IMG/VR virus record: IMGVR_UViG_3300010291_000124
Coordinates: 1-20,951 of that record
Source of the DNA: a virus
Direction: 5' to 3' (one strand)
Length of the DNA stretch: 20,951 nucleotides
In this document: positions 4,158-20,951 of the stretch, piece by piece
How the letters are laid out: every line of letters starts with the position of its first letter
How positions within the stretch are numbered: position 1 is the stretch's first letter
Program-made: the position numbers and the translations under genes
Notes under the pieces: model-generated
Told to the model about the DNA's origin: nothing
What the model saw: only the letters and a program-made list of their open reading frames with translations
The model's database searches: none

Positions 4158-4170
4158 GCCCTAAACCTCC

Positions 4171-4410: not shown

Positions 4411-4445
4411 TCTGGCCTCCTTGTCTGGTTTCTGCATGAATCTAA

Positions 4446-4461: not shown

Positions 4462-4547
4462 CTGCGCGGAAGATAGGGATTGCGCGTATGGCGTGTCAAG
4501 AACTAGAGGTATGGCAAAAACGAACCGCCGATGGAGAGGAGTTCACC

Positions 4548-5952: not shown

Positions 5953-7839
5953 GTGCACAGCTCTATCTCCACCATCTCTGCAATGGAGTTCGCCACAGCA
6001 CTGGCGTTAAGGCCAAATCTAGTCGCTTGGTTTCTAGGCGCCGGAGCATCGGCATCCTCAGGGATCCCCACTGGCTATGCAATGATTCGGGATTTCAAGG
6101 CACAGATATTTTGTCGGGAGAACAACCTATCGAAACGCGAGATCGACACTGGCGACCAAGTATGGATTGATCGGATTGAGGATTTTTTCCGCCGGACTTC
6201 GATCCTTCCGCCGGATGGGGATCCTGCTGAGTACGCGGCTGCGTTTGAGGCGGTGTACCCACAGCCCCGGCACCGGAGACAATACATCAGCGACGCCATC
6301 ACAAAGGGCAAGCCATGTTTCGGACATCGGGTGCTTGGCAGCCTTTTGACCGCGCGAAAGATCGACTGCGTATTCACGACAAACTTCGACCCGCTTGTTG
6401 AGGAAGCTGCATACGCGGCCAATTCGTTACTGCCAACCGGACAGCAGGCTCGGCCAACTGTGGCCGCGATCGACTCCGCTGAACGCGCATTGCGATGCCT
6501 CAATGAGTCCGACTGGCCTTTGGTTGCAAAGCTCCACGGGGACTACCAATCCGCATCGATCAAGAACACTGGCTCAGAGCTGGAACGACAAGACGAAAGG
6601 ATGCGGCACGTATTGATTGAAGTCAGCAAGCGCTACGGCTTGGTGTTTGTCGGCTATAGCGGTCGCGACGCATCAATAATGGAGGCCTTGAATTCAGTTC
6701 TTCAAGAGAGCGCCCCATTCCCCAACGGCCTCTATTGGGTGACTTCTTCGGCGTCGCGCCTCTTGCCGGCCGTAGCTCAGTTCCTCAAGAGCGCCCAATC
6801 CGCTGGAGTGGATGTGGCCGTGGTTGAGTGCAAGACTTTCGATGAACTCGCAGCCGATGTCATCAAACACATTGACCTGCCGCAGGTGCTCCTCGAGCAC
6901 GTGATGCAGGGACGCCCCGCTCCTCGGGCTGTGCCTGTCAAACTGCCCGACGCGACGCCGCGTTCGTTTCCAGTGCTCAGGTACTCGTCACTCCTCATAG
7001 AGTCGATGCCAACTAATGCACGACGAATTACGTTGGCGCGGCCTGTGACCTCTCCAGAGGTAAGAGCCTTGCTGAAAGAGAGGCGTAGCAGGGCAGTTGT
7101 AGCTGCGAATGGTCGCGAACTCGCAGTCTTCGGCAAAGACGAGGAGCTATTGGCGGCACTTGCTCCTCTTGGCGCACAGGTGGCGGGGAACATTGAACTA
7201 GATGCTGTCAAGGATAGCTGGGCACTTGGGCTTCTCTACGATGCGCTAGTCACAGCCCTGTCGAGGAATCGGCCTCTCATCCCACGTTTCAGGCGTTCAG
7301 GCCACTCGCTCGTTGTCGCAGCACCTCGTGTGCACGAGGACCAGGAACGATGCCGTAGGCGCGCTCAGGAGCTGAATAAGCTCCGCTCCGCATATGGTAG
7401 TGAACTGACCGGCAAAGTGCCGGACCTCATGCTCCCCTACCAAGAAGGCGTTTCATTGAAGCTAGAAAAAATTGAGGAACGCTGGTGGTGTGGATTTGAG
7501 CCATACACTTTTGTGGATATTCCCAGAATAGATCGTCTGCCGGCAGGCGAGACTGAATCGGTAGAATTAACTCATGACATCATTTCGGCACCACCTGATC
7601 GTCGTGGCGGCGATCCAGCGGGCGACTGGCGCAGAGAACGCTGGGCCCGTAAGTACAACAGGCAATGGGCCGAGATCATCGATGCGTGGGCACAGATTCT
7701 TACGGCGACCAATGACAGAAAGGTGCGAGCTTTCGGACTGAATGCCGGCACTGGGATAGACGCCGTGTTCGCCATCTCGCACGTCACCGGATGGAGCCGC
7801 CCAGGCCATCATCACCCGTACTTTGATAGGAGCAAGTGA
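5953..7839 (+). CDS. SIR2-APAZ effector subunit of a short-Argonaute defence system (SPARSA)
   Basis: 628 aa from GTG at 5953, after an AAGGAG site with short spacing; the next in-frame ATG (5983) has none. Residues about 20-290 form a SIR2 NADase domain: GAGAS (29-33) in the nucleotide loop, TTNFDPLVE with catalytic-position Asn144, KLHGD with His195, and GYSGRD (234-239). From about 320 to the end is an APAZ-type region, ending in the typical ERWARKYNRQW and IDAVFAISHVTGWSR segments. In characterised SIR2-APAZ/Ago systems the APAZ part binds short Ago; guide RNA pairing with invader DNA activates NAD+ hydrolysis and kills the infected cell. The downstream Ago gene overlaps by one base. The lower G+C suggests recent transfer. 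Confidence in the domain call is high; activity is inferred. Confidence 0.92.
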   Translation: MHSSISTISAMEFATALALRPNLVAWFLGAGASASSGIPTGYAMIRDFKAQIFCRENNLSKREIDTGDQVWIDRIEDFFRRTSILPPDGDPAEYAAAFEAVYPQPRHRRQYISDAITKGKPCFGHRVLGSLLTARKIDCVFTTNFDPLVEEAAYAANSLLPTGQQARPTVAAIDSAERALRCLNESDWPLVAKLHGDYQSASIKNTGSELERQDERMRHVLIEVSKRYGLVFVGYSGRDASIMEALNSVLQESAPFPNGLYWVTSSASRLLPAVAQFLKSAQSAGVDVAVVECKTFDELAADVIKHIDLPQVLLEHVMQGRPAPRAVPVKLPDATPRSFPVLRYSSLLIESMPTNARRITLARPVTSPEVRALLKERRSRAVVAANGRELAVFGKDEELLAALAPLGAQVAGNIELDAVKDSWALGLLYDALVTALSRNRPLIPRFRRSGHSLVVAAPRVHEDQERCRRRAQELNKLRSAYGSELTGKVPDLMLPYQEGVSLKLEKIEERWWCGFEPYTFVDIPRIDRLPAGETESVELTHDIISAPPDRRGGDPAGDWRRERWARKYNRQWAEIIDAWAQILTATNDRKVRAFGLNAGTGIDAVFAISHVTGWSRPGHHHPYFDRSK

Positions 7840-9290
7840 TGGCAAGTTCCGCCATTGCATCGCGACTCCCGCCGTTCACCTTGCTGGACGAGCCGTTGCT
7901 TTCCTTTTCTCCCTCAGATCCTGCACAGGTAGATGTGCATCCACTGCGGGGGCTCGTCAATTATGGCCCGTATTCCAAGGGCTCTTTCGGCGAATACATC
8001 TCACGGGTGCGGATCGCTACGGTTGGGCCAGAAAGTGCGTTCAAGCGTCGAGGCGAACTGATGGCCTCCCTTCGCGCCGCGCACCAACCCAGTGATCGCT
8101 CTGAATACGTACCTCCTTATCCAGGCTTTGAGCAACTGTTCCAGGTTAAGCTCGAGTCTGCCCCGCGCGAAGCTCATATCAAATGGCCAGACACTCTGAA
8201 CGCGCTTCAAGGAGAGGGCGATCCGCAGTCGCGATTGTTCTTGGCCATGGAAGCTGCGTTCCGGCAACTTTCCCTAATGAGAGATCAATTCGATGTCGTA
8301 CTAGTTCACTTCCCTGATTCATGGGCCCCGGTTACACGGACCAAGTCCTTCGACGCACATGACGCGCTCAAGGCACTCGGTGCCAATTACAACATTCCTA
8401 GCCAAGTGCTAAACGACCGCGTCTTCACTTTTAATCACACGGCATCGCTCGCGTGGCGCCTAGCGTTGGCACTATATGTCAAAGCCACGGGCACGCCCTG
8501 GAAACTGGCACCATTGAAGGGTGTGCCGGACGACACCGCGTACATCGGCTTAGCATATGCACTGCGCGGTGATCAGCGCGACGCCCACTATGTGACCTGC
8601 TGCTCACAGGTCTTCGACATGGATGGCGGTGGAATGCAGTTCGTAGCATTTGAGGCTCGCGATCCGGTTGCAGATGTTGCGGAAGCCCGACGCAATCCGT
8701 TCCTCAGTCGAGACGACATGCGTGCGGTACTCGCTAGAAGTCTGGCGCTCTATCAGGCTCGAAACGGCGGAAGCCTGCCAAAACGGTTGGTCATTCACAA
8801 AACAACTGGATTCAAGGAAGAAGAAATCGAAGGCGCTTTCGATGCTCTTTCGGGCGTGCCAGAAATCGAGTGTATCGAAGTCGGCGCGGCGTCTTGCTGG
8901 CGCGGCGTATGGCTGATTAAGTCTGAGCGAAGAGATCCGCCGAGCAAACCCTCTGCCTTTCCGGTCCCGCGTGGAACAATGGTCATCCGCTCGGGTAACT
9001 CGGCCCTCGTATGGGTAGCCGGAAATGCTCCGACGGCTTCCACCAAGAGTGACTACTATCAGGGGGGCAAGAGCATTCCCAAGCCACTGCAGCTCATCCG
9101 GCATGCCGGAAGAGGGCCACTCGAACTCTCTGCCCATGAAGCGCTCGCATTGACTAAGATGGACTGGAACAATGATGCCCTTTACGATCCAGTACCTGTT
9201 AGTATTCGGTACTCTCAAAGACTGGCACGTACCATTGCTAACGTGCCTGAACTTCCTGGTAGCGTGTACCCGTATCGCCTCTTCATGTAG
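7839..9290 (+). CDS. Short prokaryotic Argonaute (MID-PIWI), partner of SIR2-APAZ
   Basis: 483 aa from ATG 7839, with AGGAG about 6 nt upstream; a GTG at 7836 would add one residue. The length and lack of N and PAZ domains fit short pAgos. The MID region spans roughly residues 130-260 and PIWI 260-483, with family-like landmarks: YIGLAYALRGD, RLVIHKTTGF, and a C-terminal KMDWNND ... PVPVSIRYSQRLA. The positions where active Argonautes carry the catalytic aspartates (near YIGLAYAL and VIHKTTGF) lack them, so slicing is not expected. Family members load a guide RNA and recognise complementary DNA, switching on the bound SIR2-APAZ NADase. One-base overlap with the SIR2-APAZ gene (TGATG) indicates co-production of a heterodimer. 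The lower G+C matches its partner. Confidence 0.9.
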   Translation: MASSAIASRLPPFTLLDEPLLSFSPSDPAQVDVHPLRGLVNYGPYSKGSFGEYISRVRIATVGPESAFKRRGELMASLRAAHQPSDRSEYVPPYPGFEQLFQVKLESAPREAHIKWPDTLNALQGEGDPQSRLFLAMEAAFRQLSLMRDQFDVVLVHFPDSWAPVTRTKSFDAHDALKALGANYNIPSQVLNDRVFTFNHTASLAWRLALALYVKATGTPWKLAPLKGVPDDTAYIGLAYALRGDQRDAHYVTCCSQVFDMDGGGMQFVAFEARDPVADVAEARRNPFLSRDDMRAVLARSLALYQARNGGSLPKRLVIHKTTGFKEEEIEGAFDALSGVPEIECIEVGAASCWRGVWLIKSERRDPPSKPSAFPVPRGTMVIRSGNSALVWVAGNAPTASTKSDYYQGGKSIPKPLQLIRHAGRGPLELSAHEALALTKMDWNNDALYDPVPVSIRYSQRLARTIANVPELPGSVYPYRLFM

Positions 9291-9470: not shown

Positions 9471-9517
9471 TGGTTGCGGGGGTAGGATTTGAACCTACGA
9501 CCTTCAGGTTATGAGCC
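9471..9517 (-). other. Attachment core (attL/attR): 3' 47 nt of an initiator tRNA-fMet(CAU) gene
   Basis: On the minus strand this segment holds the 3' side of the anticodon stem-loop with CAU (GGCTCATAACC), the variable loop GAAGGTC, a complete T-arm (GTAGGTTCAAATCCTAC), and the acceptor 3' strand CCCCGCAACCA. It matches the 3' part of bacterial initiator tRNAs, whose acceptor pairs CGCGGGG with CCCCGCA. To the right of 9517 the sequence is not tRNA 5' half, so the gene is incomplete. This is the usual footprint of tyrosine-integrase insertion into the 3' end of a tRNA gene. Since the missing 5' half would lie to the right, the inserted element should extend rightwards from here, with the intact tRNA at its far end. 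Confidence 0.85.
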
Positions 9518-9654
9518 AGATTTGCCACTACATCTAGAGCCTTGATTGTTGACGCATTTTCCGGCTTAGTCTCTCAAGATGCTGTTTTATCGAAGCTATT
9601 CGGCGAGACCGCCTGTTACTCGCCGCCAGCGAACGACAAAAACAGCCATATGGT

Positions 9655-9675
9655 GTGTTGACACAGTGTTGACAC
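9655..9675 (+). repeat. Tandem GTGTTGACAC repeats in front of the integrase gene
   Basis: GTGTTGACAC occurs at 9655-9664 and 9666-9675, an 11-bp period, ending directly against the GGGGAGG ribosome site of the integrase. A related TGTTGAC lies at 9547-9553 nearer the attachment core. They could be arm-type integrase sites or an operator. Each also contains the hexamer TTGACA typical of a -35 box, but there is no room for a promoter before the start codon. Confidence 0.5.
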
Positions 9676-9687
9676 GGGGAGGCTGGA

Positions 9688-10980
9688 ATGACCGAGAAAC
9701 TGACCGAAGCCGCCGCCCGGAAGGCCCTGCCGCCGGTGCGCGGGCAGAGCATGCTGTGGGACGCGGAGGTGAAGGGGTTCGCGCTGCGCATCACGCCCGG
9801 CGGGGCCAAGTCCTTCATCCTGGACTATCGTGCCGAGGGGCGGCAGCGCCGCATCACCATCGGCGCATGGCCCGACTGGACGGTGGCCGCCGCGCGCCAG
9901 ACCGCGAAGGACATGAAGCGAGAGGTCGATCTCGGCCACGACCCGATGGGCGAGCGGCAGGCGCAGCGCGAGGCGCCGACGGTGCAAGATTTGTGGGATC
10001 GCTACGCCCGCGAGCACCTGCCCAAGAAGGCCGAGCGCAGTCAGGCCGACGAGCGCATGATGTGGGAAAAGATCATCCTGCCGCGCTTCGGCAAGATGAA
10101 GGTCGCGCAGATCAGCCATGACGATGTGGACGCGCTCCACCGTGACATCACCGAGATCCGTGGCACGCCGGTCCGCGCCAACCGGACTGTCGAGGTGCTG
10201 CGCAAGGCGTTCAACCTGTCGATCCGCTGGAAATGGCGCGATGACAATCCGGCCTCGGGCGTGCGCCGCAATCAGGAGGAGAAACGGAACCGCTATCTGA
10301 ACCGCACCGAGATCGCAGCACTTGCGCAGGCGCTGAACGAACATTCCGAGCCCATGTCCGCGAACGCGATCAAGCTGCTGATGCTGACCGGCGCGCGACG
10401 CGGCGAGGTGCTGGGAGCGACATGGGAGATGTTCGACCTCGAGAACGGCGTCTGGACCAAGCCCTCTGCGCACACCAAGCAGCGCAAGCTGCACCGCGTG
10501 CCGCTCTCGGGCCCGGCCGTGCAGCTGCTGGGCGAGATGAAGGCCGCCGCCAAGGCGAAGGCAGAGGCCAAGGGCACGCCGCCCAGCCCCTACGTCTTCC
10601 CCGGCCCGACAGGAAAGCCCCTCACCGAGATCAAGCGCACATGGGTCTCGGTCTGCCGCAGGGCTGGGCTCGGCGCGGAAGTGCCGTTGCTGGACGCAAA
10701 GGGCAAGCCGGTCCTCGACCGCAAGGGCAAGCCCAAAACCCAGTTCAAGCCGAATGTCCGGATCCACGACATCCGCCATTCCTTTGCCAGCATCCTCGTA
10801 TCGGCGGGCGCTTCGCTGCCCTTGATCGGCCAGATGCTCGGCCATACACAGGTCCAGACCACCCAGCGATACGCCCATCTGTTCGACGACCCGCTGCGCA
10901 AAGCTGCCGAGACGGTGGGGGCCTTCGTGCTGCAGCGCTCGCCAGAGAAGTTCAGCGCAAACGAGGCAGAGCAGAAATGA
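9688..10980 (+). CDS. int: Tyrosine-type site-specific integrase (P4-integrase-like)
   Basis: 430 aa. The N-terminal arm-binding domain (about 1-90, DUF4102-like, with FALRITPGGAKSFILDYR) is followed by a SAM-like core-binding domain (about 95-185) and the catalytic domain (about 205-410). Catalytic residues are visible: Arg237 in TGARRGE, His360 and Arg363 in HDIRHSF, His386 in LGHTQ, and nucleophile Tyr395 in TTQRYAH. The length fits the family. The start follows GGGGAGG by 5 nt, and the gene lies 170 nt from the tRNA-fMet core it is expected to recognise. It catalyses integration and, with an excisionase such as the AlpA-like proteins nearby, excision. Its stop overlaps the next start (ATGA), so downstream genes are coupled to it. 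Confidence 0.95.
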   Translation: MTEKLTEAAARKALPPVRGQSMLWDAEVKGFALRITPGGAKSFILDYRAEGRQRRITIGAWPDWTVAAARQTAKDMKREVDLGHDPMGERQAQREAPTVQDLWDRYAREHLPKKAERSQADERMMWEKIILPRFGKMKVAQISHDDVDALHRDITEIRGTPVRANRTVEVLRKAFNLSIRWKWRDDNPASGVRRNQEEKRNRYLNRTEIAALAQALNEHSEPMSANAIKLLMLTGARRGEVLGATWEMFDLENGVWTKPSAHTKQRKLHRVPLSGPAVQLLGEMKAAAKAKAEAKGTPPSPYVFPGPTGKPLTEIKRTWVSVCRRAGLGAEVPLLDAKGKPVLDRKGKPKTQFKPNVRIHDIRHSFASILVSAGASLPLIGQMLGHTQVQTTQRYAHLFDDPLRKAAETVGAFVLQRSPEKFSANEAEQK

Positions 10981-11654
10981 CCGATCAGAAGCCTTACGGA
11001 CCACCGCCCGACGCCATCCCGCTGTCCGACGCTATGAAGGAATACCTGCCCGCCGAGATGTGGGAGGAGCACGCGCGCGCGACCGAGGCCCGCAAGAACG
11101 CGCCGAAGCGGCCAAGCTACCTCAGCATGTCCGTGCGGGAATGGGAGGCCGCGAACGCCTCCTACGAAGCCGCCAACCGGACGCGCTCGGCGCGGGCCGA
11201 TCTGCACCGCGTCTGGAACGGCATGCTCGCCGCGATGAAGGCGAAGCTGGAGGCGGGCGAACTGACAGCCTTCGGGCAGGAGAACCCACCTTTCGGCCCA
11301 TGGCATGCGATCCCGGCGCCCGCGTGGCGCCAGCTGCGCATCACCAATGTCCGCAAGGGCGAGGCCACCGTCGGCGCGAACATCGTGCACGATATTCACA
11401 TCCTGCCGCCAGATGCCGACGACCACATGCCGACCGGGACGCCGGGACGTCCGAAGAAGGGAATCGACATCATCCGGATCGAGTTTCAGCGCCGCGTCGA
11501 TGCGGGCGAACTCGCGGACAGTCTCGCCGCCGAAGCCCGCACGCTTCAGGCATGGTATCGCGAGACCTGGCCGCGGCGGGACTGTCCCACGACCAAGACC
11601 ATCGAGAACAACCTTCGCGAGGCTTGGCGCGCAGTCCGGCTAAGGACTGCGTAA
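10977..11654 (+). CDS. Conserved-looking phage-associated hypothetical protein (225 aa)
   Basis: The start is the ATG overlapping the integrase stop (ATGA, 10977-10980). The same frame stays open far upstream, but that part is antisense-free read-through inside the integrase gene and has no ribosome site. The protein is soluble, with an N-terminal charged region (AMKEYLPAEMWEEHARATEA), a middle with PPFGPWHAIPAPAWRQL, and a C-terminal helical part (IEFQRRVDAGELADSLAAEA, then TIENNLREAWR). The C-terminal part is reminiscent of a short helical DNA-binding or regulatory module, but I cannot assign a family. Its coupling to the integrase suggests a role in element control. A probable terminator follows it at 11669-11698. 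Confidence 0.8.
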   Translation: MTDQKPYGPPPDAIPLSDAMKEYLPAEMWEEHARATEARKNAPKRPSYLSMSVREWEAANASYEAANRTRSARADLHRVWNGMLAAMKAKLEAGELTAFGQENPPFGPWHAIPAPAWRQLRITNVRKGEATVGANIVHDIHILPPDADDHMPTGTPGRPKKGIDIIRIEFQRRVDAGELADSLAAEARTLQAWYRETWPRRDCPTTKTIENNLREAWRAVRLRTA

Positions 11655-11668
11655 TCCCCTGAAATTAT

Positions 11669-11698
11669 CGCTCCAGGGGCATTTTCGGAGCGGTTTTT
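11669..11698 (+). terminator. Rho-independent-type terminator after the int operon
   Basis: CGCTCC (11669-11674) pairs with GGAGCG (11687-11692), followed by GTTTTT ending at 11698. A second hairpin, CCCCTG (11656-11661) with CAGGGG (11674-11679), overlaps the left arm by one base and interleaves with it, so the two are alternatives. This resembles an attenuator layout, although the loops (12 nt each) are longer than ideal. Confidence 0.5.
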
Positions 11699-11769
11699 CG
11701 GGGGGCTGAACGTCGGCATCTTTCGGGCATTGGCGGCGCGTTGCGTCGCCTGGCACGAAGGAGACACCG

Positions 11770-12051
11770 ATGACCCAACCCATTGCATCCAGAGGCGCAG
11801 AAAGGGCCACCACTGTCGCCCCGCCCACCGATTTCCTCGACGGTTTCATCTCGGAAGAAGAATACGCCGCCCGCCGCGGGGTCAGCTTGCGCACCTGTCA
11901 GCGCGACCGCCAACTGCGTCAGTCCCCACCCTTCGTTGTGATCGGTCGGCGCGTCTATTACCGCATCGAGGCGGTCCGAGACTGGCTTCTGGCCCGCGAA
12001 CAGCAAGCCTCCCGGAAACCGAGCGCCCCGCGTGCCGGGAGGGGCCGATGA
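11770..12051 (+). CDS. AlpA-like helix-turn-helix DNA-binding protein
   Basis: 93 aa, with a clear AAGGAG ribosome site 7-8 nt before the ATG. Residues about 25-75 form an excisionase/AlpA-type winged helix: ISEEEYAARRGVSLRTCQRD, then the wing PPFVVIGRRVYYRIEAVRDWL. The C-terminus is basic (SRKPSAPRAGRGR). In P4-like elements AlpA activates int or acts as a directionality factor; in other satellites it activates the replication operon. Its stop overlaps the next start (ATGA, 12048-12051). It stands first in the gene run leading to the primase and follows a terminator, so a new transcript probably starts in the 115-nt gap before it. Confidence 0.85.
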   Translation: MTQPIASRGAERATTVAPPTDFLDGFISEEEYAARRGVSLRTCQRDRQLRQSPPFVVIGRRVYYRIEAVRDWLLAREQQASRKPSAPRAGRGR

Positions 12052-12272
12052 CCGCGCCCGCCACGCTCGCGCCCGACCTGATGATCGGTGCCGCCGAGAT
12101 CGCCCACTTCCTTTTCGACTCCGACGAGTTCCGGTTCCAGCGCCGCGTCTACTACCTCTGCACACGCTCGAAGCGCCCACTGCCGCATTTCCGGCTGGGC
12201 AACCGCATCGCCACACGTCGCTCCACGCTGATGGACTGGATCGCCCTGCAGGAGGGCTTCGCCAATGCCTGA
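12048..12272 (+). CDS. Second small winged-helix (AlpA/excisionase-like) protein
   Basis: 74 aa from the ATG in the ATGA overlap with the preceding gene; GGGAGGGG lies 4-5 nt upstream. The sequence has IGAAEIAHFLF, a tyrosine-rich helix RRVYYLCTRS, then a wing with PHFRLGNRIATRRSTLMDWI. This is the same overall pattern as the preceding HTH protein, but it is divergent in sequence, so the two are probably not a recent duplication. A function as excisionase or regulator of the primase operon is inferred from family and position. It overlaps the next gene by 8 nt. Confidence 0.75.
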   Translation: MTAPATLAPDLMIGAAEIAHFLFDSDEFRFQRRVYYLCTRSKRPLPHFRLGNRIATRRSTLMDWIALQEGFANA

Positions 12273-12732
12273 TATTCCCATCCAGTTCACCGGCTCGATT
12301 CTCGACCGAATGGAGGAAAAGGTGGCCGCAGAGGCCCCGCACCTGCTGCCCATCGTCCACGCGATCCGCGATCACGGTGTCGGCTTCCTGGTGATCCCCC
12401 AGCGCGCGACCGGCCTCAAACGCGGCCTCAAGCTGCTGAAACGGCCCTTTATCGTCATGGTGGGCGATGACACCGACTGCGCGCTCGGCCCCGATCAGTA
12501 TGACAGCAGCGCGCTCGACCGATTGATCGGCATGGCGGATGGCGTCGCCATCATCTCCTGCACCCCTCCGCCCGAGGCCTATTCGAGCATCGCCTTGATG
12601 GCCATGGCGCAGCGCAACGGTCTCATCATCGAGACCCGCCCCGAGCAGGAGATCGCCTGGACCAACCGCGTGCAGGCGGTCTGTCCCGAAATGCCGATCC
12701 TGCTCTGCACCGTGAAGGGGCAGCTGCAATGA
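12265..12732 (+). CDS. Unrecognised 155-aa protein upstream of the primase
   Basis: The ATG follows an AGGAGGG ribosome site about 9 nt upstream, overlaps the previous gene by 8 nt, and its stop overlaps the primase start (ATGA). I do not recognise the family. The sequence shows alternating hydrophobic strands and helices (HGVGFLVIP, KRPFIVMVGDD, DGVAIISCTPPPEAYSSIAL, NGLIIETRP), suggesting a small Rossmann-like alpha/beta fold. There is no signal peptide or membrane segment. Its fixed place in a fully coupled run ending with the primase suggests a role in replication or its control, but the sequence shows no catalytic motif. Confidence 0.8.
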   Translation: MPDIPIQFTGSILDRMEEKVAAEAPHLLPIVHAIRDHGVGFLVIPQRATGLKRGLKLLKRPFIVMVGDDTDCALGPDQYDSSALDRLIGMADGVAIISCTPPPEAYSSIALMAMAQRNGLIIETRPEQEIAWTNRVQAVCPEMPILLCTVKGQLQ

Positions 12733-15182
12733 CAGTGCAAGATGACCCTCTCGACTTCAACGACACGCCACCCAACTCGCGCGCCCAAACCGCCACCCGC
12801 ATGTCCGTCGCCCAGCTGGCCAACATGCTGCAAGACCGCATCGCGGACCTGGCCCGCGATCTGCTGGGCGAGCCGAATCGGGAGCTTTCCAGCGCGCAGC
12901 AGCTGCGCTTCGGCACCAAGGGCAGCGTCGCCGTGGAAATCGACGGCGCGAACAAGGGCCGCTGGTACGACCATGAACATGGCGCCGGGGGCGCAGCGCT
13001 GGAACTGATCGGCTATCGCCTGCGCCTCGACGACAAGGCGGCGTGGGACTGGGCACGGAGCTGGCTTGGCGAACCTGACACCGGTCCGCTCCGGACGGCG
13101 ACGCCGCATGCGTCGCCCGCATGTTCTGCCTCGGGCTCGGCCAGAGCGAAAGAACCTACACCCGAGGAACGCGCTGAAAAGGTGGCCGAGATCGTGCGTC
13201 GCAGCGAAAGCCTCGTCTCGACGCCGGTGCTCGCCTACCTGCGCCATCGCGGGATCACCGCCACGCCACCAGACTGCATCCGCTATCGCCGGTATGCCTA
13301 TGGCAAGTTCAGCGCCATGGTCGCGCTCGCCACAGACGAGTCGGGTGAGGTGCTGGCGATCCAGCAGGTCTACCTGACGGCCGAAGGGCGGAAAGCCCCG
13401 GTCAAGGTGGTCAAGCGCACCAACAAGGCCGTCGATGACTGGACCAAGCGCGCCGCCATGCGCCTCCCCGGTCGCGAACCGCTGGTGCTCTGCGAGGGTG
13501 TCGAGACCGCGCTGTCGGTCTGGCAGGCCACCGGACAGGAGACTTGGGCCTGCCTCGGCATTTCGAACATCGGCCGCGCGCCCGTGCCCGAAAACGCCAC
13601 AGTGATCATCGCCCGCGATGGCGACCTGCCCGGCAGCAAGGCCGAGGGCCAAATGGCCCGCGCCGCGAGCCAGCTCGCACGCCGCGGCATGACGGTGATG
13701 CTCGCCACCCCGCCCGAGGAACAGGACTTCAACGATGTCCTCGTCCGCGAGGGCGAGGCGGCCGTGCGCGACCGCATCGCGGCGGCCGAACGCTTCCGTG
13801 CCGAGAAGGCCGACACCGAACGGAAGCGCCTCTTCATCGGCTCGGACGTGGAGATCGCGAAGCGGGTTCGAGAGGATCTGACCAAACGCCACGGCCGCAT
13901 CGTCCATGCCGATGGGGAGTTCTGGCGCTATGGCGGCACCCATTGGGAAGCGATCCCCGACCACGAGCTGCGCCTGCCGGTCCATGCCTATGACGGCGCC
14001 GGGTTCGAGACCCCGGCGGGCGAGCCCTCGAACGTGAAGCTGACAAAGACCCGCGTCAATTCCGTCCTCAACGAATGCGCCGCGCTCTGCGCCGAGCCGG
14101 GATACTTCGACGCGCCGCCACCTGGGATCAACTGCGCCTCGGGCTTCATCCGCTTCGATGCGGAGGGGGTGCCGCACCTCGAGGCGCACCACCGCCAGCA
14201 TCGCTGCCGCCACACGCTGCCCGGCCATTGGCAGCCCGGCACCTCGGGCACGCCGCCCGTAGGCTCGCTGCTGGCCCGGCTGCTCGGCGGCAGCTTCAAG
14301 GGCGATCCCGAGGCCGGGCCAAAATGCGCGCTCCTGGCAGAAGTCTGCGGCGCGGCGGCGCTGGGCTACGCTACCCGGCTGATGCAGCCCCGCGCAGTGG
14401 TGCTGCACGGCAAGACCGCCGAGAACGGCAAGAGCCAGGTGCTCGAACTGGCCCGCGGCCTCCTGCCCGCCAGCGCCATCTGCTCGGTCCCCGCCTCAAA
14501 GATGGGCGACGAGCGGCATGTCATCGGTCTCGTTGGCAAGCTGCTGAACGCCTCCGACGAGCTCTCACCCGAAGCCATCGCGTCCGACACCTTCAAGGCG
14601 GTCGTCACCGGCGATCCCATCGAGGGGCGCGACGTCTACAAGAGCCGGGTCGAGTTCCGCTCGGTCGCGCAGAACCTCTTCGCCGCGAACCAGCTGCCGA
14701 GCTTCAAGGGCGGCGTGGACCGGGGCGTGCAGCGGCGCCTGCTCCTGATCCCCTTCACCCGCTCGATCCCGCTGGACGAGCGCATCGAGGATATCGGCAA
14801 GCGTATCGCCGCCGAGGAACCGGACCTGCTGCTGGCATGGGCCGTGGAGGGCGCGGCGCGGCTGATCCGCCAGCGCAACTTCGCGATCCCGCAGGGCTGC
14901 CACGACGCCCTCCTCGAATGGGTGCTGAGCGAGGATCCCATCGCCGCCTGGATCGACGCCTGCGTGTCGGTCGTACCGATCGTGAACGGCGGGCCGATGC
15001 TGGCCACGCGCGACGCCCACCTGCGCTTCCAAAACTGGGCGCTGGCCGAGGGCTACAAGCCCGAGAAGCTGCCCGCCATCAACGGCTTCGTCCAGCGCGT
15101 GCAGGCCCGCGTGGCCGGGATCCAGCACAAGCGCACGAAGGCGGGGCGGTTCTTCATCGGTCTCGCGGTGACGCACTGGTGA
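12729..15182 (+). CDS. P4-type DNA primase-helicase (Toprim plus SF3/D5-like ATPase)
   Basis: 817 aa. The N-terminal region (about 60-115, with GRWYDHEHGAGG) resembles the zinc-finger-like CHC2/DUF7146 primase part. A Toprim domain follows, with CEGVET (255-260) and DGD (297-299). The helicase domain has a P-loop GKTAENGKS (561-569), a Walker B-like LLNASDEL (605-612), and arginine-rich GGVDRGVQRRL (661-671), as in the P4 alpha/D5 family. Such enzymes prime and unwind DNA, and in P4 also bind the origin, giving self-sufficient replication. The start overlaps the previous stop (ATGA). The last codons run into the first of the iteron-like repeats, so the origin may be directly adjacent to the initiator gene. 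Confidence 0.92.
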   Translation: MTVQDDPLDFNDTPPNSRAQTATRMSVAQLANMLQDRIADLARDLLGEPNRELSSAQQLRFGTKGSVAVEIDGANKGRWYDHEHGAGGAALELIGYRLRLDDKAAWDWARSWLGEPDTGPLRTATPHASPACSASGSARAKEPTPEERAEKVAEIVRRSESLVSTPVLAYLRHRGITATPPDCIRYRRYAYGKFSAMVALATDESGEVLAIQQVYLTAEGRKAPVKVVKRTNKAVDDWTKRAAMRLPGREPLVLCEGVETALSVWQATGQETWACLGISNIGRAPVPENATVIIARDGDLPGSKAEGQMARAASQLARRGMTVMLATPPEEQDFNDVLVREGEAAVRDRIAAAERFRAEKADTERKRLFIGSDVEIAKRVREDLTKRHGRIVHADGEFWRYGGTHWEAIPDHELRLPVHAYDGAGFETPAGEPSNVKLTKTRVNSVLNECAALCAEPGYFDAPPPGINCASGFIRFDAEGVPHLEAHHRQHRCRHTLPGHWQPGTSGTPPVGSLLARLLGGSFKGDPEAGPKCALLAEVCGAAALGYATRLMQPRAVVLHGKTAENGKSQVLELARGLLPASAICSVPASKMGDERHVIGLVGKLLNASDELSPEAIASDTFKAVVTGDPIEGRDVYKSRVEFRSVAQNLFAANQLPSFKGGVDRGVQRRLLLIPFTRSIPLDERIEDIGKRIAAEEPDLLLAWAVEGAARLIRQRNFAIPQGCHDALLEWVLSEDPIAAWIDACVSVVPIVNGGPMLATRDAHLRFQNWALAEGYKPEKLPAINGFVQRVQARVAGIQHKRTKAGRFFIGLAVTHW

Positions 15183-15392
15183 CGCACCAAACCGGCTTTT
15201 TGGCCCCTAACCCATTGAGAGTGTTGAGATGACGCACTTCGGCTCAGATATTTCGATAGGGGGAGAAATTATCTCCCCAACCATCATCCCGTTCCCCTAT
15301 ATGAAAAGGTTGCCGGGGCAAGTGCGTCATCTCAACACTTTCAACGGCTTACACCCGAAATCGCGTCATCCTTGCGTCACCGGTGCGTCACC
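15167..15392. repeat. Symmetric iteron-like array downstream of the primase: candidate replication origin
   Basis: A TGACGCA core (or its complement TGCGTCA) occurs in two opposed groups. Forward copies are GGTGACGCAC at 15167-15176 and 15178-15187 (11-bp period) and GATGACGCAC at 15228-15237. Reverse copies are GTGCGTCA at 15322-15329, and GCGTCA cores at 15363, 15374 and 15385 (again 11 bp). Between the groups is less GC-rich sequence with a GGGGAGA/TCTCCCC hairpin (15260-15278). The first two copies lie over the primase stop. Repeats at helical-turn spacing next to a P4-type primase are how P4 and PICI origins are organised (family knowledge). Origin function is an inference; an operator for the packaging genes is the alternative. 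Confidence 0.65.
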
Positions 15393-15520
15393 CGAGGCGC
15401 CGAGCGCGCCCGCCCGAGGCGGGGTCAAGCCGGAAGGATCGGGAAAGCGGCGGTTCCTCCTGCGCCGATCCGTATGTGGGGACGCGCAGCGCATAAGCCC
15501 ACCAACGTCAGGGGGACGAT
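15183..15520. other. 338-nt non-coding region between primase and small terminase
   Basis: The left two thirds hold the iteron-like repeats and inverted repeat listed separately. The right part (15393-15520) contains one more potential hairpin, GGATCGG (15436-15442) with CCGATCC (15465-15471), and the GGGGGA ribosome site of the small terminase. An open frame from 15229 is judged non-coding because it is built over the repeats. I see no clear promoter for the packaging genes. Confidence 0.6.
15220..15339. repeat. Perfect 20-bp inverted repeat with an 80-nt centre
   Basis: The arm 15220-15239 (beginning AGTGTTGAGATGACG) is exactly complementary in reverse to 15320-15339. Partial symmetry extends about 8-9 nt further outward with a few mismatches. 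Each arm contains one iteron-like core. The centre has a smaller 7-bp hairpin (15260-15266 with 15272-15278). Confidence 0.85.
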
Positions 15521-16030
15521 ATGCCTAAACTAAACAGTTTGGAGTCCAAATCCGACTTCGCCGCTCGCGTCGGGCTGACCAAGGGGCGCATCTCGCAGCT
15601 GGTAGCCGAGGGGCTGCCGGTGCGCAGCGATGGCCGGATCGACGTGGCGGTGGGGCTCGCCTGGATCGAGAACAATCTCGACCCGGCCCGGCGCAACAAG
15701 GGCGGTGCTGCCAGCCAAGCCCGCAATCCGACCACGCTGGCCGAGGCGAAGCGGCTGCATGAGATTGTCAAGGTCCAGCGCGCCAAGCTGGCCTATGAGC
15801 GCGAGCGAGGGGAGTTGGTCGAGACCGCCGCCGCCACGCGCACGGTGTTCGCGCGTGCCCGCGCCGAACGCGACGCGCATATGGCGTGGGTGCAGCGCAC
15901 CGCCCCTCTGCTGGCCGCCGAGCTCGGGGCCGATCCTCGCGCCACCTTTGCCGCGCTCGACCGGATGATGCGTGAGCATCTCGAACATCTAGCCGACCTA
16001 CCTCTGGGGAGTATTGGCGATGGTACCTGA
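15521..16030 (+). CDS. Phage terminase small subunit (Nu1-like)
   Basis: 169 aa; the ATG follows a GGGGGA ribosome site. The N-terminal part is a winged-helix DNA-binding domain (SDFAARVGLTKGRISQLVAE, then GLPVRSDGRIDVAVGLAWI) as in lambda gpNu1. A long central helix (AEAKRLHEIVKVQRAKLAYE, then RERGELVETAAATR) is typical of the oligomerisation segment. The protein recognises the packaging site on phage DNA and hands it to the large subunit. Its end overlaps the large-subunit start by 11 nt. In satellites, the small terminase decides which genome is packaged, so this gene would be the key redirecting factor if the element is a satellite (inference). Confidence 0.88.
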   Translation: MPKLNSLESKSDFAARVGLTKGRISQLVAEGLPVRSDGRIDVAVGLAWIENNLDPARRNKGGAASQARNPTTLAEAKRLHEIVKVQRAKLAYERERGELVETAAATRTVFARARAERDAHMAWVQRTAPLLAAELGADPRATFAALDRMMREHLEHLADLPLGSIGDGT

Positions 16031-17831
16031 CATCGATCTCGCATGGCGGCGCGGCATCCGCCCCGAGCCGCCGATCCCGGTCTCGGATTGGGCCGACCGG
16101 CACCGCATACTGCCACCGACCTCCGCCGAGCCGGGCCGCTGGCGCACGGACCGCACGCCCTATCTGCGCGCGGTGATGGATGCGCTGTCCACCTCCAGCC
16201 CCTATGAACGCGTCGTGCTGATGAAAGGCGCGCAGACGGGCGGTTCGGAGGCGGGGCTGAACTGGCTGGGCTACATCATCCAGAACGCGCCCGGCATCGC
16301 CATGCTGGTGATGCCCTCCCTCGACATGGTGCGGCGGAACACCACCGTGCGGATCGACCCGCTCATCGAGGCGACACCCGCCCTGCGCGAACTGGTCGCC
16401 GCGCCCCGCTCCCGCGACGCCGGAAACAGCCTGTTCCGCAAGTCCTTCCCCGGCGGCCAGTTGGTGATGACCGGCGCCAATTCCGCCGTCGGCCTGCGGT
16501 CCACGCCCGTGCGCTATTTGTTCCTGGACGAGGTGGACGGCTATCCCGGCGACGCAGATGGCGAGGGCGATCCCGTCGATCTGGCAATCCAGCGCACCGC
16601 CACCTTCCGCGGGCGGCGCAAGATCTACATGGTCTCCACGCCGACCCTCAAAGGCCATTCCCGCATCGAGGCCGCCTTCGAGCACAGCGACCGGCGCTTC
16701 TACCACGTCCCCTGCCTGCATTGCGGCGACATGGCCCCGATCACCTGGGCGCGCATCCGCTGGCCCGAGGGGCGGCGCGATCAGGCGCATCTTGTCTGCG
16801 AGGCCTGCGGTGGTATCCATCACGAGCACGAGAAACCGCGCCTGCTGGCCGCAGGGGAATGGCGCGCGACGGCCCAAGGCGATGGCCGCACCGCAGGCTT
16901 CCACCTCTCCGCGCTCTATTCCCCATGGGAGACATGGGCCGAGATCGCCGCCGAGCATGGCCGGGTGCGCAAGGACCCCGCGCGCCTGCAGGTCTGGGTC
17001 AACACCAAGCTGGGCGAGTCGTGGGAGGACCAGGCGGGCGACACCGTTCCGGCTGATCCGCTGATGGCGCGACGCGAGGATTGGGGCGAGGCGCTGCCCG
17101 CCTCCGTCGCCGTGCTGACCGCAGGCGTCGACGTGCAGGGCGACCGGATCGAGGTGCAGATCCTCGGCTGGGGCCGCGACGAGGAGGCTTGGGTCATCGA
17201 CTACCGCGTGCTATGGGGTGACCCGTCCGGGCCGCGCCTCTGGTCCGATCTCGACATGGTCCTGCAGGCAACCTTCCCGCATCCCGCCGGGCTCGACCTG
17301 CCGGTGCGCGCGGCGGCCATCGACACTGGTGGCCACCACACCAAGATGGCCTACGAGTTCTGCCGCACCCGCCTCGCCCGCCGCATCTGGGCGATCAAGG
17401 GCCGAGGCGGACCCGGCATCCCAGTCTGGCCGCGCCGCCCGACGCGCACGAACAAGGGCAAGATCCCGCTGTTCATCGTGGGCGTCGATGCGGTGAAGGA
17501 CGCGGTCTATGCCCGCCTGCGCCTGACCGAGCCCGGCCCCGGCGCAATCCACTTTCCCCGCCGCCTCGACACCGACTATTTCCGCCAGCTCACCGCCGAG
17601 CGCGTCGTCACCCGCTTCGAGCGCGGACGCCCGATCCGCTCTTGGCAGCCCAAGCGCGAAGGCGAACGCAACGAGGCCCTCGACACCTTCGTCTACGCCC
17701 ACGCCGCTCTGCACGGCCTCATCAGCATGGGGCTCCGGCTGAACGAGGAGGTGGAGGGGGTGGCAGGGCAGGCAGCGGCGCGGTCAGGCGTCGTAACTGG
17801 GCTTGTGATCCGGTCGGCGTGGATGCGTTGA
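16020..17831 (+). CDS. Phage terminase large subunit (GpA-like)
   Basis: 603 aa from the ATG at 16020; a TTG at 16014 is nearer the ribosome site GGGGAG than is usual, so the ATG is preferred. The ATPase domain has a Walker A-like KGAQTGGSE (about 69-77) and Walker B LFLDEVDG (about 167-174). A zinc-binding insertion has CLHC (about 232-235) and CEAC (about 260-263). The nuclease domain follows, with GVDVQGDRIE (about 369-378) and a later AIDTGGHHTK. It powers DNA translocation into the prohead and cuts the concatemer. The end (VIRSAWMR) looks like a natural C-terminus although length is slightly short for the family. Packaging genes continue only after the inserted restriction-modification pair. 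Confidence 0.93.
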   Translation: MVPDIDLAWRRGIRPEPPIPVSDWADRHRILPPTSAEPGRWRTDRTPYLRAVMDALSTSSPYERVVLMKGAQTGGSEAGLNWLGYIIQNAPGIAMLVMPSLDMVRRNTTVRIDPLIEATPALRELVAAPRSRDAGNSLFRKSFPGGQLVMTGANSAVGLRSTPVRYLFLDEVDGYPGDADGEGDPVDLAIQRTATFRGRRKIYMVSTPTLKGHSRIEAAFEHSDRRFYHVPCLHCGDMAPITWARIRWPEGRRDQAHLVCEACGGIHHEHEKPRLLAAGEWRATAQGDGRTAGFHLSALYSPWETWAEIAAEHGRVRKDPARLQVWVNTKLGESWEDQAGDTVPADPLMARREDWGEALPASVAVLTAGVDVQGDRIEVQILGWGRDEEAWVIDYRVLWGDPSGPRLWSDLDMVLQATFPHPAGLDLPVRAAAIDTGGHHTKMAYEFCRTRLARRIWAIKGRGGPGIPVWPRRPTRTNKGKIPLFIVGVDAVKDAVYARLRLTEPGPGAIHFPRRLDTDYFRQLTAERVVTRFERGRPIRSWQPKREGERNEALDTFVYAHAALHGLISMGLRLNEEVEGVAGQAAARSGVVTGLVIRSAWMR

Positions 17832-17952
17832 TCCTACCGACAAATCGTCCGTTACTGCGGAGCTCGCCTATCTTCTGAAATCTGCGAAAATGAGGTTTCG
17901 CGATCAGTTTCGTGGATTATCAGAGCCTTCGCCAGGATTTCTGCGCCAGTGC
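17832..17952. other. Junction between terminase gene and the restriction-modification insert
   Basis: Base composition drops here compared with the terminase gene. GCGAAA (17884-17889) and TTTCGC (17896-17901) form a short hairpin between the convergent terminase and endonuclease genes; it could weakly terminate either. No small gene is evident. Confidence 0.4.
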
Positions 17953-18831
17953 TTACCTTTCATCGAGTTCCGCAGTGACGCCGCCCTTCGCCCGAACAAG
18001 CGCGACAAGTTCGGCCATGATGCGAGGCATCTCTTCGATTACTTCGTATCCGAAAAGAATCTCGTCCACGTAGCCCATGTGCAACATGTCCACCATGCGA
18101 CAGAGGTAAGAGCGTCCGCAATCCCACCAAGTATAATGAGCGTCAACGATGAGGTAATGCCGGACATCAATGCCCTCGTGCTCCCGAAGCTCCTCAAGCT
18201 CCATCCCGTCAAGCAACGTTTCATAGACACCGTCGGCGACGCGGCTGCCGAACGTTGTCGTGTAATAGTACTCCTTGATCTCCCAAACGGCGACTGGGTT
18301 TACGGCAGAGGGAAATGCTCCATCGACACGCCGCGCCAGCGTCCGTACAGGTACGCCATCTCGGGTGACAGTCGTCAGTTCGTGAGGGTCGTAATCGCAA
18401 GGGAGTCCCTCGGCGTGAGCCTCAACCATCATGTTGACCAAGCCCGTAAGGAACGCCTCGGCCTTCATCTCTCCCTTCTGCTTGTTCATCGGAATCGGGC
18501 AGGTGGGGTTCAGGCGTGCCTTGAGGGCATCGAATTCCGCCTTGGCCCTTGCCGCATCCATCAGACGCGGCTCCACGTATTCGTTCAGCACCTCAGCCCT
18601 GTAGCTAAAATACTCTTGCAAACCCCTCGCCAGCGGGGTCGGCGTGCCGTCACGCTCTCGCAGCACGGCATCGCTTAGGCCAAGTTCCCGAAATGCCTTC
18701 CGCATCGCGGGAAGGTCTGGAACTTTGATCCGACCAGTCCCCCGCTGCGTGTAGCCAACCGCTTGGCTGATGGTCCTAACACTTGCCCAGAATGTCTTGG
18801 GCTTCTGAAGAAAACGATGGTCCGGCCGCAC
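17953..18831 (-). CDS. Probable type II restriction endonuclease (PD-(D/E)XK-like)
   Basis: 292 aa from a GTG whose first base is at 18831, preceded by a GC-rich GCGGGGG ribosome-like site. The frame is open up to 18951, but that start would leave only 3 nt to the divergent methyltransferase, with no room for promoters, so the shorter form is preferred with moderate confidence. A nuclease-like core is visible: RVDGAFPSAV followed by VAVWEIKEYYYTT, giving Asp170 and Glu184-x-Lys186 in the short numbering. The segment MNKQKGEMKAEAFLTGLV precedes it. The pairing with a divergent D12-class adenine methyltransferase makes a restriction role likely. The exact family and recognition site cannot be read from the sequence. 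Lower G+C suggests acquisition as a cassette. Confidence 0.7.
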   Translation of the reverse strand: MRPDHRFLQKPKTFWASVRTISQAVGYTQRGTGRIKVPDLPAMRKAFRELGLSDAVLRERDGTPTPLARGLQEYFSYRAEVLNEYVEPRLMDAARAKAEFDALKARLNPTCPIPMNKQKGEMKAEAFLTGLVNMMVEAHAEGLPCDYDPHELTTVTRDGVPVRTLARRVDGAFPSAVNPVAVWEIKEYYYTTTFGSRVADGVYETLLDGMELEELREHEGIDVRHYLIVDAHYTWWDCGRSYLCRMVDMLHMGYVDEILFGYEVIEEMPRIMAELVALVRAKGGVTAELDER

Positions 18832-18915
18832 TGTGCCCCCGCGTGATGAGCTTGTTCGACGACCAGCCACGCGAATCCAAACTATGAACTTGGTTTCGGG
18901 CGCGCTGGGTGGTAT

Positions 18916-18953
18916 TTGGTAAGAATGGTATGACGCGAGGATAAAGAACACAA
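18916..18953. promoter_or_regulatory. Candidate overlapping divergent promoters of the R-M pair
   Basis: On the minus strand, TTGTGT (complement of 18948-18953) and TACCAT (complement of 18925-18930) are 17 bp apart, pointing to the endonuclease. On the plus strand, TTGGTA (18916-18921) and GATAAA (18940-18945) are 18 bp apart, pointing to the methyltransferase. The matches are partial. If real, the two promoters exclude each other and the methyltransferase message would be almost leaderless. Confidence 0.3.
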
Positions 18954-18954
18954 T

Positions 18955-19869
18955 ATGCAGTATGCCTTATTTGCCGAGGAGAGCGGGGATGTCGAGATCC
19001 GGTCAGATGGCTGGGTGCGGCGGAAAAAGGTCGCTCCGTTTAAGACACAGCTGCTCAAATGGATCGGCAACAAGCAGAAGTTCGCCCACGAGATCATTGG
19101 AACATTCCCTGAGGACTACGGCACCTACCATGAGCCTTTCATCGGGGCTGGTGGGGTCATGGCTGCGCTCTCGCCCAAAAGAGCCATCGGCTCAGATGTC
19201 TTCGGACCGCTCGTCGAGATATGGCAGACGCTTTCTTCCGACCCGGAACGCCTGAAGTCTTGGTACGCAACTCGATGGGCGATTTACAAGGACGGCGACC
19301 GCGTCGAGCAGTATGAGAAGATCAAGGCTTCATACAACGCAGAGCCCAACGGAGCTGACCTGCTCTTTCTCTGCCGTTCCTGCTATGGTGGTGTTGTCCG
19401 GTTTCGGAAACGCGACGGCTACATGTCCACGCCCTGCGGCGCGCACGAACCAATTCATCCCGCGTCTTTCTCCCAACGCGTCGATATCTGGCACAAGCGG
19501 ATGAAAGGTGCCCAGTTCGAGCGAATGGATTACGCAGAGGCGATGTCGCGGGCTCAACCCGGAGATTTGGTCTACTGCGATCCCCCCTACTCCTATTCGC
19601 AGGCGATACTTTACGGCGCGCAAGACTTCAAGCTTGAGGAGCTATTCACGGCGGTTGCGGACTGCAAAGAACGTGGCGTGCATGTCGCTCTCAGTATTGA
19701 TGGGACCAAAAAATCAGGGGAATTGTACTGTGACATTAAGATCCCTGAGGGCCTTTTCGAGAACGAACTGCTTGTGAACATTGGACGCTCAATGCTTCGG
19801 CGCTTTCAGATGGGTGGAAAAACGCTTGAAGCAGAAGAGGTGCGCGACCGCTTACTTCTGACCTACTGA
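18955..19869 (+). CDS. D12-class N6-adenine DNA methyltransferase
   Basis: 304 aa. Family motifs in the usual order: KWIGNK (35-40, motif X), EPFIGAGG (60-67, the S-adenosylmethionine loop), SD at 80-81, and the catalytic DPPY at 209-212. The MTase transfers a methyl group to N6 of adenine in a short recognition sequence (Dam/DpnM/EcoRV-M class); the specificity is not readable. The ATG has only a distant GAGGA ribosome-like site (about 13 nt), so translation may be near-leaderless. It is divergent from the endonuclease gene and probably protects element and host DNA from it. It is not a typical host Dam, as it is tied to a nuclease and has lower G+C than the phage genes around it. Confidence 0.92.
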   Translation: MQYALFAEESGDVEIRSDGWVRRKKVAPFKTQLLKWIGNKQKFAHEIIGTFPEDYGTYHEPFIGAGGVMAALSPKRAIGSDVFGPLVEIWQTLSSDPERLKSWYATRWAIYKDGDRVEQYEKIKASYNAEPNGADLLFLCRSCYGGVVRFRKRDGYMSTPCGAHEPIHPASFSQRVDIWHKRMKGAQFERMDYAEAMSRAQPGDLVYCDPPYSYSQAILYGAQDFKLEELFTAVADCKERGVHVALSIDGTKKSGELYCDIKIPEGLFENELLVNIGRSMLRRFQMGGKTLEAEEVRDRLLLTY

Positions 19870-20013
19870 AGTTCGGCCTGCAGCAGTTGCCTCGGCTTGT
19901 AGGCAAGAGGGCCTATCGGGAACCGCTGCATCAGCGCTGAGGAGCCGCTGCCCTTCGCGATTCCCAAACATTCCCAATAGCTTGACGGCCCGCTTTGTGC
20001 GATTCTGCCGCCC
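19870..20013. other. Junction between the R-M insert and the portal gene
   Basis: No gene with a ribosome site is visible in this 144-nt gap. In related phages a small head-tail connector gene (gpW-like) commonly lies between large terminase and portal; I find no such frame here. The portal ATG also lacks a good ribosome site, which fits an insertion that disturbed the original coupling (inference). Confidence 0.4.
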
Positions 20014-20951
20014 ATGCGGACCTTCCTCCATCGCCTTCTCGGCTTCGCGCGCGCTCGCGGTTTCGACGCTGCGGGTGGCGGGCGGCGTTGGGAGGGGGCG
20101 CGGACGGTCGACGGGCTGAACGCGGCGATCCTGGCGGGCGCGACCACGGCGGCGCGGCGGGCCGGGTGGTATGCGCGCAACAATCCGTGGGTCGCGGCGG
20201 CGGTGGACAGCCTGGTCGGCAATGTCGTCGGTGCCGGGATCAAACCGCAATCCACCCATCCCGAGCGCGCGGTGCGCGAACGGCTGCAGTTGCTGTGGCT
20301 GCGCTGGACCGATCATGCAGATCCTGGTGGGCTGGCCGACTTCTACGGGCTGCAGGCCATGGCCGTGCGCGCGATGATCGAGAGCGGGGAGAGCTTTGGC
20401 AGGCTCCGCGTCGCCATTGAGACCAGCGACCTTCCTCTTCACATCGAGCTTCTTGATCGCGAGCAGGTTCCCATGGACCTGCACCGCGAGATCGGCGGCG
20501 GGGCGCGGATCCGCGCGGGCATCGAGTTTGATGCCGCCGGTCGCCGGGTCGCCTATCGGGTCTTGTCCTCCCGCCCGGGCGATCCGCTGGGGTCTTCCCG
20601 CATTGACCCGCTCCGCGTTCCCGCCGCCGATTGCCTGCACTTATTCAAGCCGCTCGCGGCGGGGCAGCTGCGCGGGATCACCTGGCTCGCGCCGGTGCTG
20701 TTGCGGCTGCATGAGCTCGACCAGTTCGAGGACGCCGCGCTGGTGAAGGCCAAGGTCGCAGCGCTCTTCACCGGTTTCATCACCGATCCCGATGGGACGG
20801 CAGGCGGGCTCTCGGGCACGAACACCGGCGGCGCGCTGACCGTGGGCATGGAGCCCGGCAGCCTGATCCCGCTGCCGCCCGGCACCGACATCCGCTTCTC
20901 AAACCCGACCGAACACGATGCCTATGCGCCCTTCGTCAAGAACCACCTGCG
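20014..20951 (+). CDS. Phage portal protein, lambda gpB family (3' end off window)
   Basis: 312 codons are open from the ATG at 20014 to the window edge; the rest lies outside. The sequence matches the lambda-type portal family: ARRAGWYARNNPWVAAAVDS, then LVGNVVGAGIKPQ, IESGESFGRLRV, LLDREQVPMD, and LHLFKPLAAGQLRGITWLAP. Portals form the dodecameric channel at one capsid vertex through which the terminase packs DNA. No ribosome site is seen before the ATG, unlike most genes here. The gene resumes the high G+C and packaging function interrupted by the R-M pair. A usual family length of about 480-530 aa means that roughly 60 percent is visible. Confidence 0.9.
   Translation, partial: MRTFLHRLLGFARARGFDAAGGGRRWEGARTVDGLNAAILAGATTAARRAGWYARNNPWVAAAVDSLVGNVVGAGIKPQSTHPERAVRERLQLLWLRWTDHADPGGLADFYGLQAMAVRAMIESGESFGRLRVAIETSDLPLHIELLDREQVPMDLHREIGGGARIRAGIEFDAAGRRVAYRVLSSRPGDPLGSSRIDPLRVPAADCLHLFKPLAAGQLRGITWLAPVLLRLHELDQFEDAALVKAKVAALFTGFITDPDGTAGGLSGTNTGGALTVGMEPGSLIPLPPGTDIRFSNPTEHDAYAPFVKNHL

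Follow-up and report, generated by a model that had tools for sequence, protein, structure and literature searches.

We read the right-hand part of the DNA analysed here, a contig of 20951 b that constitutes a complete IMG/VR record (hereafter the window), as the left two-thirds of an integrated phage satellite of Rhodobacterales bacteria, about 17 kb long, that encodes its own capsid. We give this reading a probability of roughly 0.87; it rests on sequence, and there are no particle, induction or transfer data. The satellite portion (window positions 9474–20951) comprises 11.5 kb from the left end of the element. Because the portal gene is cut by the contig end, the verdict depends on relatives; because the window is the whole record, its own right end cannot be read, and the missing 5–6 kb of this copy are inferred from synteny. 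The attL core of the window also occurs at both ends of 28 complete relatives, and relatives have the intact tRNA-Met at the right end. The attL is an integration leftover, with the intact tRNA expected rightwards, beyond the contig. All element genes of the window point right, the restriction enzyme gene excepted (Table 1).

Table 1 Features of the satellite portion of the window, with the evidence for each assignment
Feature	Position	Strand	Evidence
attL, 3' part of tRNA-Met(CAT)	9474..9517	-	Rfam tRNA match, 25.8 bits
Tyrosine integrase (int), 430 aa	9688..10980	+	Pfam PF00589 6e-24 and PF13356
Conserved hypothetical, overlaps int stop	10977..11654	+	Present in part of relatives
Small AlpA/excisionase-like regulator 1	11770..12051	+	PHROG 66, excisionase and transcriptional regulator, E 5e-6
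Small winged-helix excisionase-like protein 2	12048..12272	+	In almost all clade I relatives; 26-row alignment
Small conserved protein, 155 aa	12265..12732	+	Kept in relatives with the same integrase type
Primase-helicase (Toprim_3, D5_N, DUF5906), P4-like	12729..15182	+	Pfam; PHROG 2249 DNA primase 2e-104
Candidate replication origin, repeat region	15160..15400		TGACGCA iterons inverted about a central spacer; 32-nt inverted repeat
Terminase small subunit (TerS)	15521..16030	+	PHROG 57, 1e-33
Terminase large subunit (TerL), lambda gpA type	16020..17831	+	PF05876 3e-92, PF20454 9e-100
Cargo: type II restriction enzyme (DUF7690 + DUF7687)	17953..18951	-	PADLOC REase_II 3e-60; Pfam
Cargo: Dam-type N6-adenine methyltransferase	18955..19869	+	PF02086 3e-28; TIGR00571 above cut-off; PADLOC MTase_II 9e-74
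Portal, lambda family, 312 of about 470 aa	20014..20951	+	Up to 95% identity to full-length relatives, which match PF05136 1e-101

The initial annotation had described a gene order running from int through a hypothetical gene, two AlpA-like HTH genes, a small protein, a primase and repeats to TerS, TerL and the portal, with 5.8 kb between the int start and TerS. Every gene was found in this order, the distance was correct, and the stretch from int to portal held no recognisable repressor, recombination or lysis gene, as had also been claimed. The AlpA label for the two HTH genes is less secure. Both are present and of a small DNA-binding type, but regulator 1 has only its PHROG 66 match and none to Pfam AlpA, and no named family was matched by protein 2. 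The predicted structure of protein 2 is winged-helix-like (pLDDT 85), and the best PDB match of the model, the excisionase RdfS, is non-significant (E 1.1). The conserved hypothetical gene product had no family match in Pfam and other family scans, nor did the 155-aa protein in Pfam, PHROG and further family scans. The repeat region fared well as a candidate origin, the repeats exceeding chance: six of the eight TGACGCA copies in the window fall in 15169–15390, and almost all of the roughly 60 relatives have the motif, in both orientations, at the corresponding position in the primase–TerS gap (~340–350 b). This conserved arrangement has the build expected of an origin for the adjacent primase-helicase, and we treat it as a candidate.

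The restriction-modification (R-M) cargo that had been proposed is present between TerL and the portal. The Dam-type methyltransferase is, as predicted from its gene, the partner of the neighbouring restriction enzyme, the pair spanning 17953–19869. The corresponding TerL–portal slot measures 2.2–5.2 kb in each complete element, and its ORFs (n = 65) include N6_N4 methylases (9), N6 methylases (6), C5 methylases (4) and D12 methylases (3), as well as EcoRI-, EcoRII-, MamI- and MmeI-like enzymes; one relative (L065) carries an IetA-like protein. Only part of the cargo was individually scanned against PHROGs. Judged by these annotations, the slot is a site of exchangeable, mainly R-M cargo, and the R-M system of an element could protect its host against other phages.

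To read the right end that the window lacks, we turned to relatives, which were retrieved by scans with the primase and TerL and which numbered more than 100 with the same order, mainly from Rhodobacterales. Genes were called by codon usage with a home-made program. When each end had to carry the tRNA-Met core as an att repeat, 28 distinct complete elements of 15.6–18.2 kb remained, among them the Ruegeria intermedia and Zavarzinia copies and the tandem pair described below. Each opens with int, followed by excisionase-like gene(s) and the primase, then TerS, TerL and the cargo; the portal comes next, ahead of the fused protease-capsid, the gpW-like adaptor and, in most, cement, with att last. 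The fused S78 protease-capsid protein that follows the portal (PHROG 4523, 1e-233) is found in all 28; the head-tail adaptor Ad1 (gpW-like, about 70 aa) comes after the capsid gene, and a DUF2190 cement protein is present in 26 of the 28 (one split). In relatives with longer contigs, optional cargo and then the intact tRNA-Met follow the cement gene; in the 28 complete elements, att lies about 0.4–2.8 kb past the capsid gene. When every predicted gene was compared by BLAST with the families of the element and with tail proteins from related phages, no tail or lysis gene emerged in any of the 28, and PHROG/Pfam scans of representatives likewise gave none. Thus, the check that had been suggested for the right end, that capsid, protease and connector genes run directly into att, was passed by 28 of 28 relatives, and the tail and lysis set that would have refuted the satellite reading was absent from them, the window itself being truncated. 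A homologue of the head-closure protein Hc1 was not found in the satellites, and no Stl-like or Rpp-like induction or interference genes were recognised.

Copies are found in isolate or type-strain genomes of Ruegeria intermedia, Zavarzinia marina and Pseudooceanicola nanhaiensis, one of them next to a candidate helper prophage. The Ruegeria intermedia copy (L209) is complete, 17.4 kb in length, and lies beside a full prophage; the Zavarzinia copy (L210) is outside Rhodobacterales, and one annotated copy is carried by plasmid NZ_CP102353. Several arrangements were observed in single genomes. Two different satellites of the window's kind (clade I, below) stand in tandem at one att with three tRNA-Met cores (L136–L137 in G003), and one contig contains three clade I satellites that differ in cargo, each inserted at a tRNA-Met site of its own (L212–L214 in G019). 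A 10993-b contig (L103/G001) has a permuted order, running from portal to TerL via a short int remnant, and is without cargo; a terminal repeat was not found, and therefore no excised circle is claimed.

The total length of the complete elements is 17.1 ± 0.6 kb despite varying cargo. The standard deviation of 0.62 kb compares with 1.15 kb expected if three variable parts were independent (0 of 20000 shuffles were as low), and the size of the cargo slot is inversely related to that of the rest of the element (Spearman −0.64). Related copies are not fully independent, and removing five left the length result no weaker. A length held at 17.1 kb while cargo varies is as expected for a fixed small head, and is most simply explained by a limit on how much DNA the element's own head can package. 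When L209 was compared with the window and L065, dN/dS values were about 0.08–0.16 in int, primase, TerL, portal and capsid (integrase about 0.1 for the window versus L209), with 0.14 for the cement gene and 0.3 for the 69-aa adaptor. By these ratios, the head genes are under purifying selection.

In a capsid tree of 48 rows, the tail-less elements formed one group (100/100) apart from all tailed phages sampled. This group consists of clade I, the window's kind (~17 kb, tRNA-Met), and clade II, tail-less elements of 10–13 kb (L174–L179, L194–L203) located at Thr, Trp, Cys, Pro, Met, Ser and other tRNA genes and ordered TerS-TerL-cargo-200 aa gene-portal-protMCP-Ad1-cement-int. Capsids of 40–58% identity had been candidates for tailed relatives, an assignment rejected for the many that form this second tail-less clade, and capsids of Rhodobacter, Pseudomonas, Shewanella and Bordetella phages were rejected as members, since every one sampled came from a tailed phage and fell outside the satellite group. 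Siphophages with a fused protease-capsid, exemplified by Rhodobacter phage RcKemmy and the Ruegeria intermedia prophage in G002, which belongs to a Rhodobacterales prophage family, encode TerS, TerL, Ad1, portal, protease-capsid and cement proteins homologous to those of the satellites, but they have full tail and lysis modules that the satellites lack, and their capsids fall outside the satellite clade. Their order is TerS-TerL-Ad1-portal-MCP-cement-Hc1-tail, whereas in satellites Ad1 follows the capsid gene and the element ends before Hc1. The siphophage capsid proteins also have 60–75 extra residues between the protease and capsid domains compared to the satellites, which, by inference, go with a larger siphophage head. 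The tree was rooted by midpoint only, so that capture from a phage, as the direction in which evolution went, is an inference.

The homology to siphophage head modules, in which the tails follow MCP, bears on whether the window could be an ordinary temperate tailed phage with its tail and lysis genes past the contig end. The window is cut within the portal and its core genes all occur in prophages too; however, the 28 complete relatives reach att shortly after the capsid gene without tails, and the window showed no Ad1 between TerL and portal, where the tailed relatives place it. We consider an ordinary phage very improbable on these grounds. Marginally less credible still is a decaying, immobile prophage remnant that has lost its tail genes. 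Some copies are indeed broken, with capsid fragments in L169 and L171 and a stop codon in the G022 capsid gene, but dozens of divergent copies keep their boundaries, order and size, and the integrases differ between copies, one of which resides outside the order (Zavarzinia). The dN/dS of about 0.1 and the length compensation between cargo sites are also not what a remnant would be expected to display.

Rhodobacterales are rich in GTAs, and host-useful R-M cargo is prominent in these elements, which could point to a domesticated, GTA-like or otherwise host-serving capsid element that packages DNA and is not a satellite. The element has its own integrase, att, excisionase-like genes, primase and origin, though, and its patchy distribution (27/393 genomes) and tandem insertions are typical of a mobile element; we regard this as the least plausible of the alternatives. 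The capsid-encoding satellite remains the preferred reading and, as it has its own head and packaging genes without tail or lysis genes, its tails very probably come from a helper phage.

The initial annotation likened the element to capsid-forming PICIs (cf-PICIs), and we compared it with one prototype, an annotated island of E. coli EDL933 that, by gene content, we take to be EcCIEDL933. The EDL933 stretch overlapped neighbouring prophage genes and the satellite coordinates alone were used. The prototype shares an integrase, an AlpA-like gene and a primase-type replication gene with this family; both encode TerS, TerL, portal, prohead protease, capsid protein and connector, neither has tail or lysis genes, and its size of 14.4 kb is similar. 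BLASTP against the capsid, portal and TerL of EcCIEDL933, the only prototype compared, gave no similarity (E 0.36, 0.46 and 0.73 among the three). The protein families differ as well: the capsid is PF25209/gpT-like and fused to S78 in this family but PF05065 with a separate S78 in EcCIEDL933, the portals are PF05136 and PF04860, and TerL is of gpA type as opposed to TerL_ATPase/nuclease. The terminase genes stand before the head genes in this family and after them in EcCIEDL933, and, unlike the prototype, this family carries cargo within the head operon and has neither an HNH gene beside the terminase nor a head-closure gene. An HNH endonuclease was absent as a constant part of the packaging module, HNH proteins occurring only as variable cargo. 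Of the functional traits of a cf-PICI, the family has TerS, TerL and portal in the window and the protease-capsid fusion in the 28 complete relatives, together with an integrase, an AlpA-type regulator (its identity weakly supported) and a primase; of the connector and head-closure genes, relatives have Ad1, but no Hc1 homologue was found, unlike in EcCIEDL933. The mark of the lineage, a PF05065 capsid, portal and TerL homologous to cf-PICI prototypes, was not seen. The likeness holds for lifestyle, which the 28 tail-less and lysis-less relatives support, and does not extend to detectable homology: with no similarity to the prototype by BLAST and a different order, the family works like a cf-PICI and looks like an independent alphaproteobacterial lineage, although its prior listing in published satellite collections is not excluded. 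The average size of cf-PICIs is 14 kb (PMC10803314), and the published cf-PICI capsids compared in one study had been collected with PF05065 (PMC13230959).

Other satellites share parts of this design. P4-like satellites have an integrase, an AlpA-type regulator, a Toprim/D5-type primase-helicase and an iteron-type origin in common with this family. P4 itself is without capsid, portal and terminase genes and remodels helper heads (PMC10690885), and the window, which encodes TerS, TerL and portal, does not fit a P4-like group without its own capsid and terminase. The cf-PISP/PISP satellite-plasmids of Vibrio and the MulchRoom/MiniFlayer satellites of Streptomyces phages also have their own head and packaging genes and are tail-less (PMC13230959, PMC10690885), but these have other hosts and are plasmid-maintained or parasites of virulent phages, and the Vibrio cf-PISP/PISP capsids belong to other families, PF05065 and PF03864.

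A candidate helper was sought by co-occurrence in 393 Rhodobacterales genomes, among which 27 were positive for the capsid gene of clade I. Of the 393, 91 have the siphophage family's tape-measure gene, as do 21 of the 27 clade I genomes versus 6.3 expected (odds ratio 14.8; p 6e-10). A control contractile sheath displayed no association with the 27 clade I genomes (3 versus 2.3 expected), nor did clade II with the same tail (6/23 versus 5.3 expected). No correction for host phylogeny was applied to the co-occurrence, and just 2–3 candidates per genome were scored in the search; the candidate helper tail was not seen in 6 of the 27 satellite-bearing genomes, and helpers can come from outside. 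The candidate helper prophage carries the parts that satellites miss, namely head closure Hc1, tube, chaperone, tape measure, fibre and endolysin. Its tape-measure gene is far commoner than expected in satellite-bearing genomes, which makes this family the candidate helper. We consider it slightly better than an even bet that the helper is this siphophage family with a homologous head module in the same genomes; the evidence is a correlation, and helper dependence is inferred. A further gene, F9 (examples at L065:17585–17851 and L133:4560–4832), is common to satellites and candidate helper prophages (65–77% identity); the phage has it next to TerS, and the satellite has it at its right end. 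F9 encodes a small helical protein with no function assigned and a poor predicted model (pLDDT 65). In one locus (L220, G163), satellite portal and capsid genes adjoin fragments of the candidate helper tail tube and chaperone, apparently a satellite/helper hybrid, recombinant or decayed.

From these data a cycle may be inferred in which infection or induction by a tailed siphophage triggers excision of the satellite, which would then replicate from its iterons and fill a small head of its own with its genome. The helper would supply head closure, tail and lysis, and the R-M cargo would defend the host against other phages. Guardedly, and as somewhat more likely than not, we favor an undescribed alphaproteobacterial radiation (clades I and II) that arose from one siphophage head-module capture independent of cf-PICIs, in which clade I parasitises one siphophage family that keeps the homologous head module and carries exchangeable R-M systems in its head operon under a strict length limit.

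The DNA to the left of the satellite is also rich in defence genes. Just left of attL (5953–9290), a SIR2 gene (PADLOC Aga_SIR2-PNTD1-PNTD2, 2e-224) precedes one for a short Argonaute (pAgo_I, 1e-210); together they are a defence pair of SPARSA type. The stretch 365–5800 holds an AbiEi/AbiEii pair, an HTH gene and an ImmA/IrrE-type peptidase matching capP, together with two minus-strand genes of no assigned function (2009–4157), and is a defence island that flanks the satellite at the same tRNA-Met. An HTH/excisionase-like ORF on the minus strand (2–205) is truncated by the end of the contig, and the left flank could be part of a different mobile element.

In the literature examined, capsid-forming satellites have so far come mainly from Enterobacteriaceae and Firmicutes. 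Clade I alone, in about 7% of 393 Rhodobacterales genomes, is common, and as its head genes are unrelated to the prototype by BLAST, the combination of an own head with stolen tails probably evolved independently. Since copies exist in isolate and type-strain genomes, with a candidate helper prophage next to one of them, tail piracy can be tested directly, as can limits on genome size and the defence borne by cargo, and the TerL–portal slot is a place to seek R-M and other defence systems.
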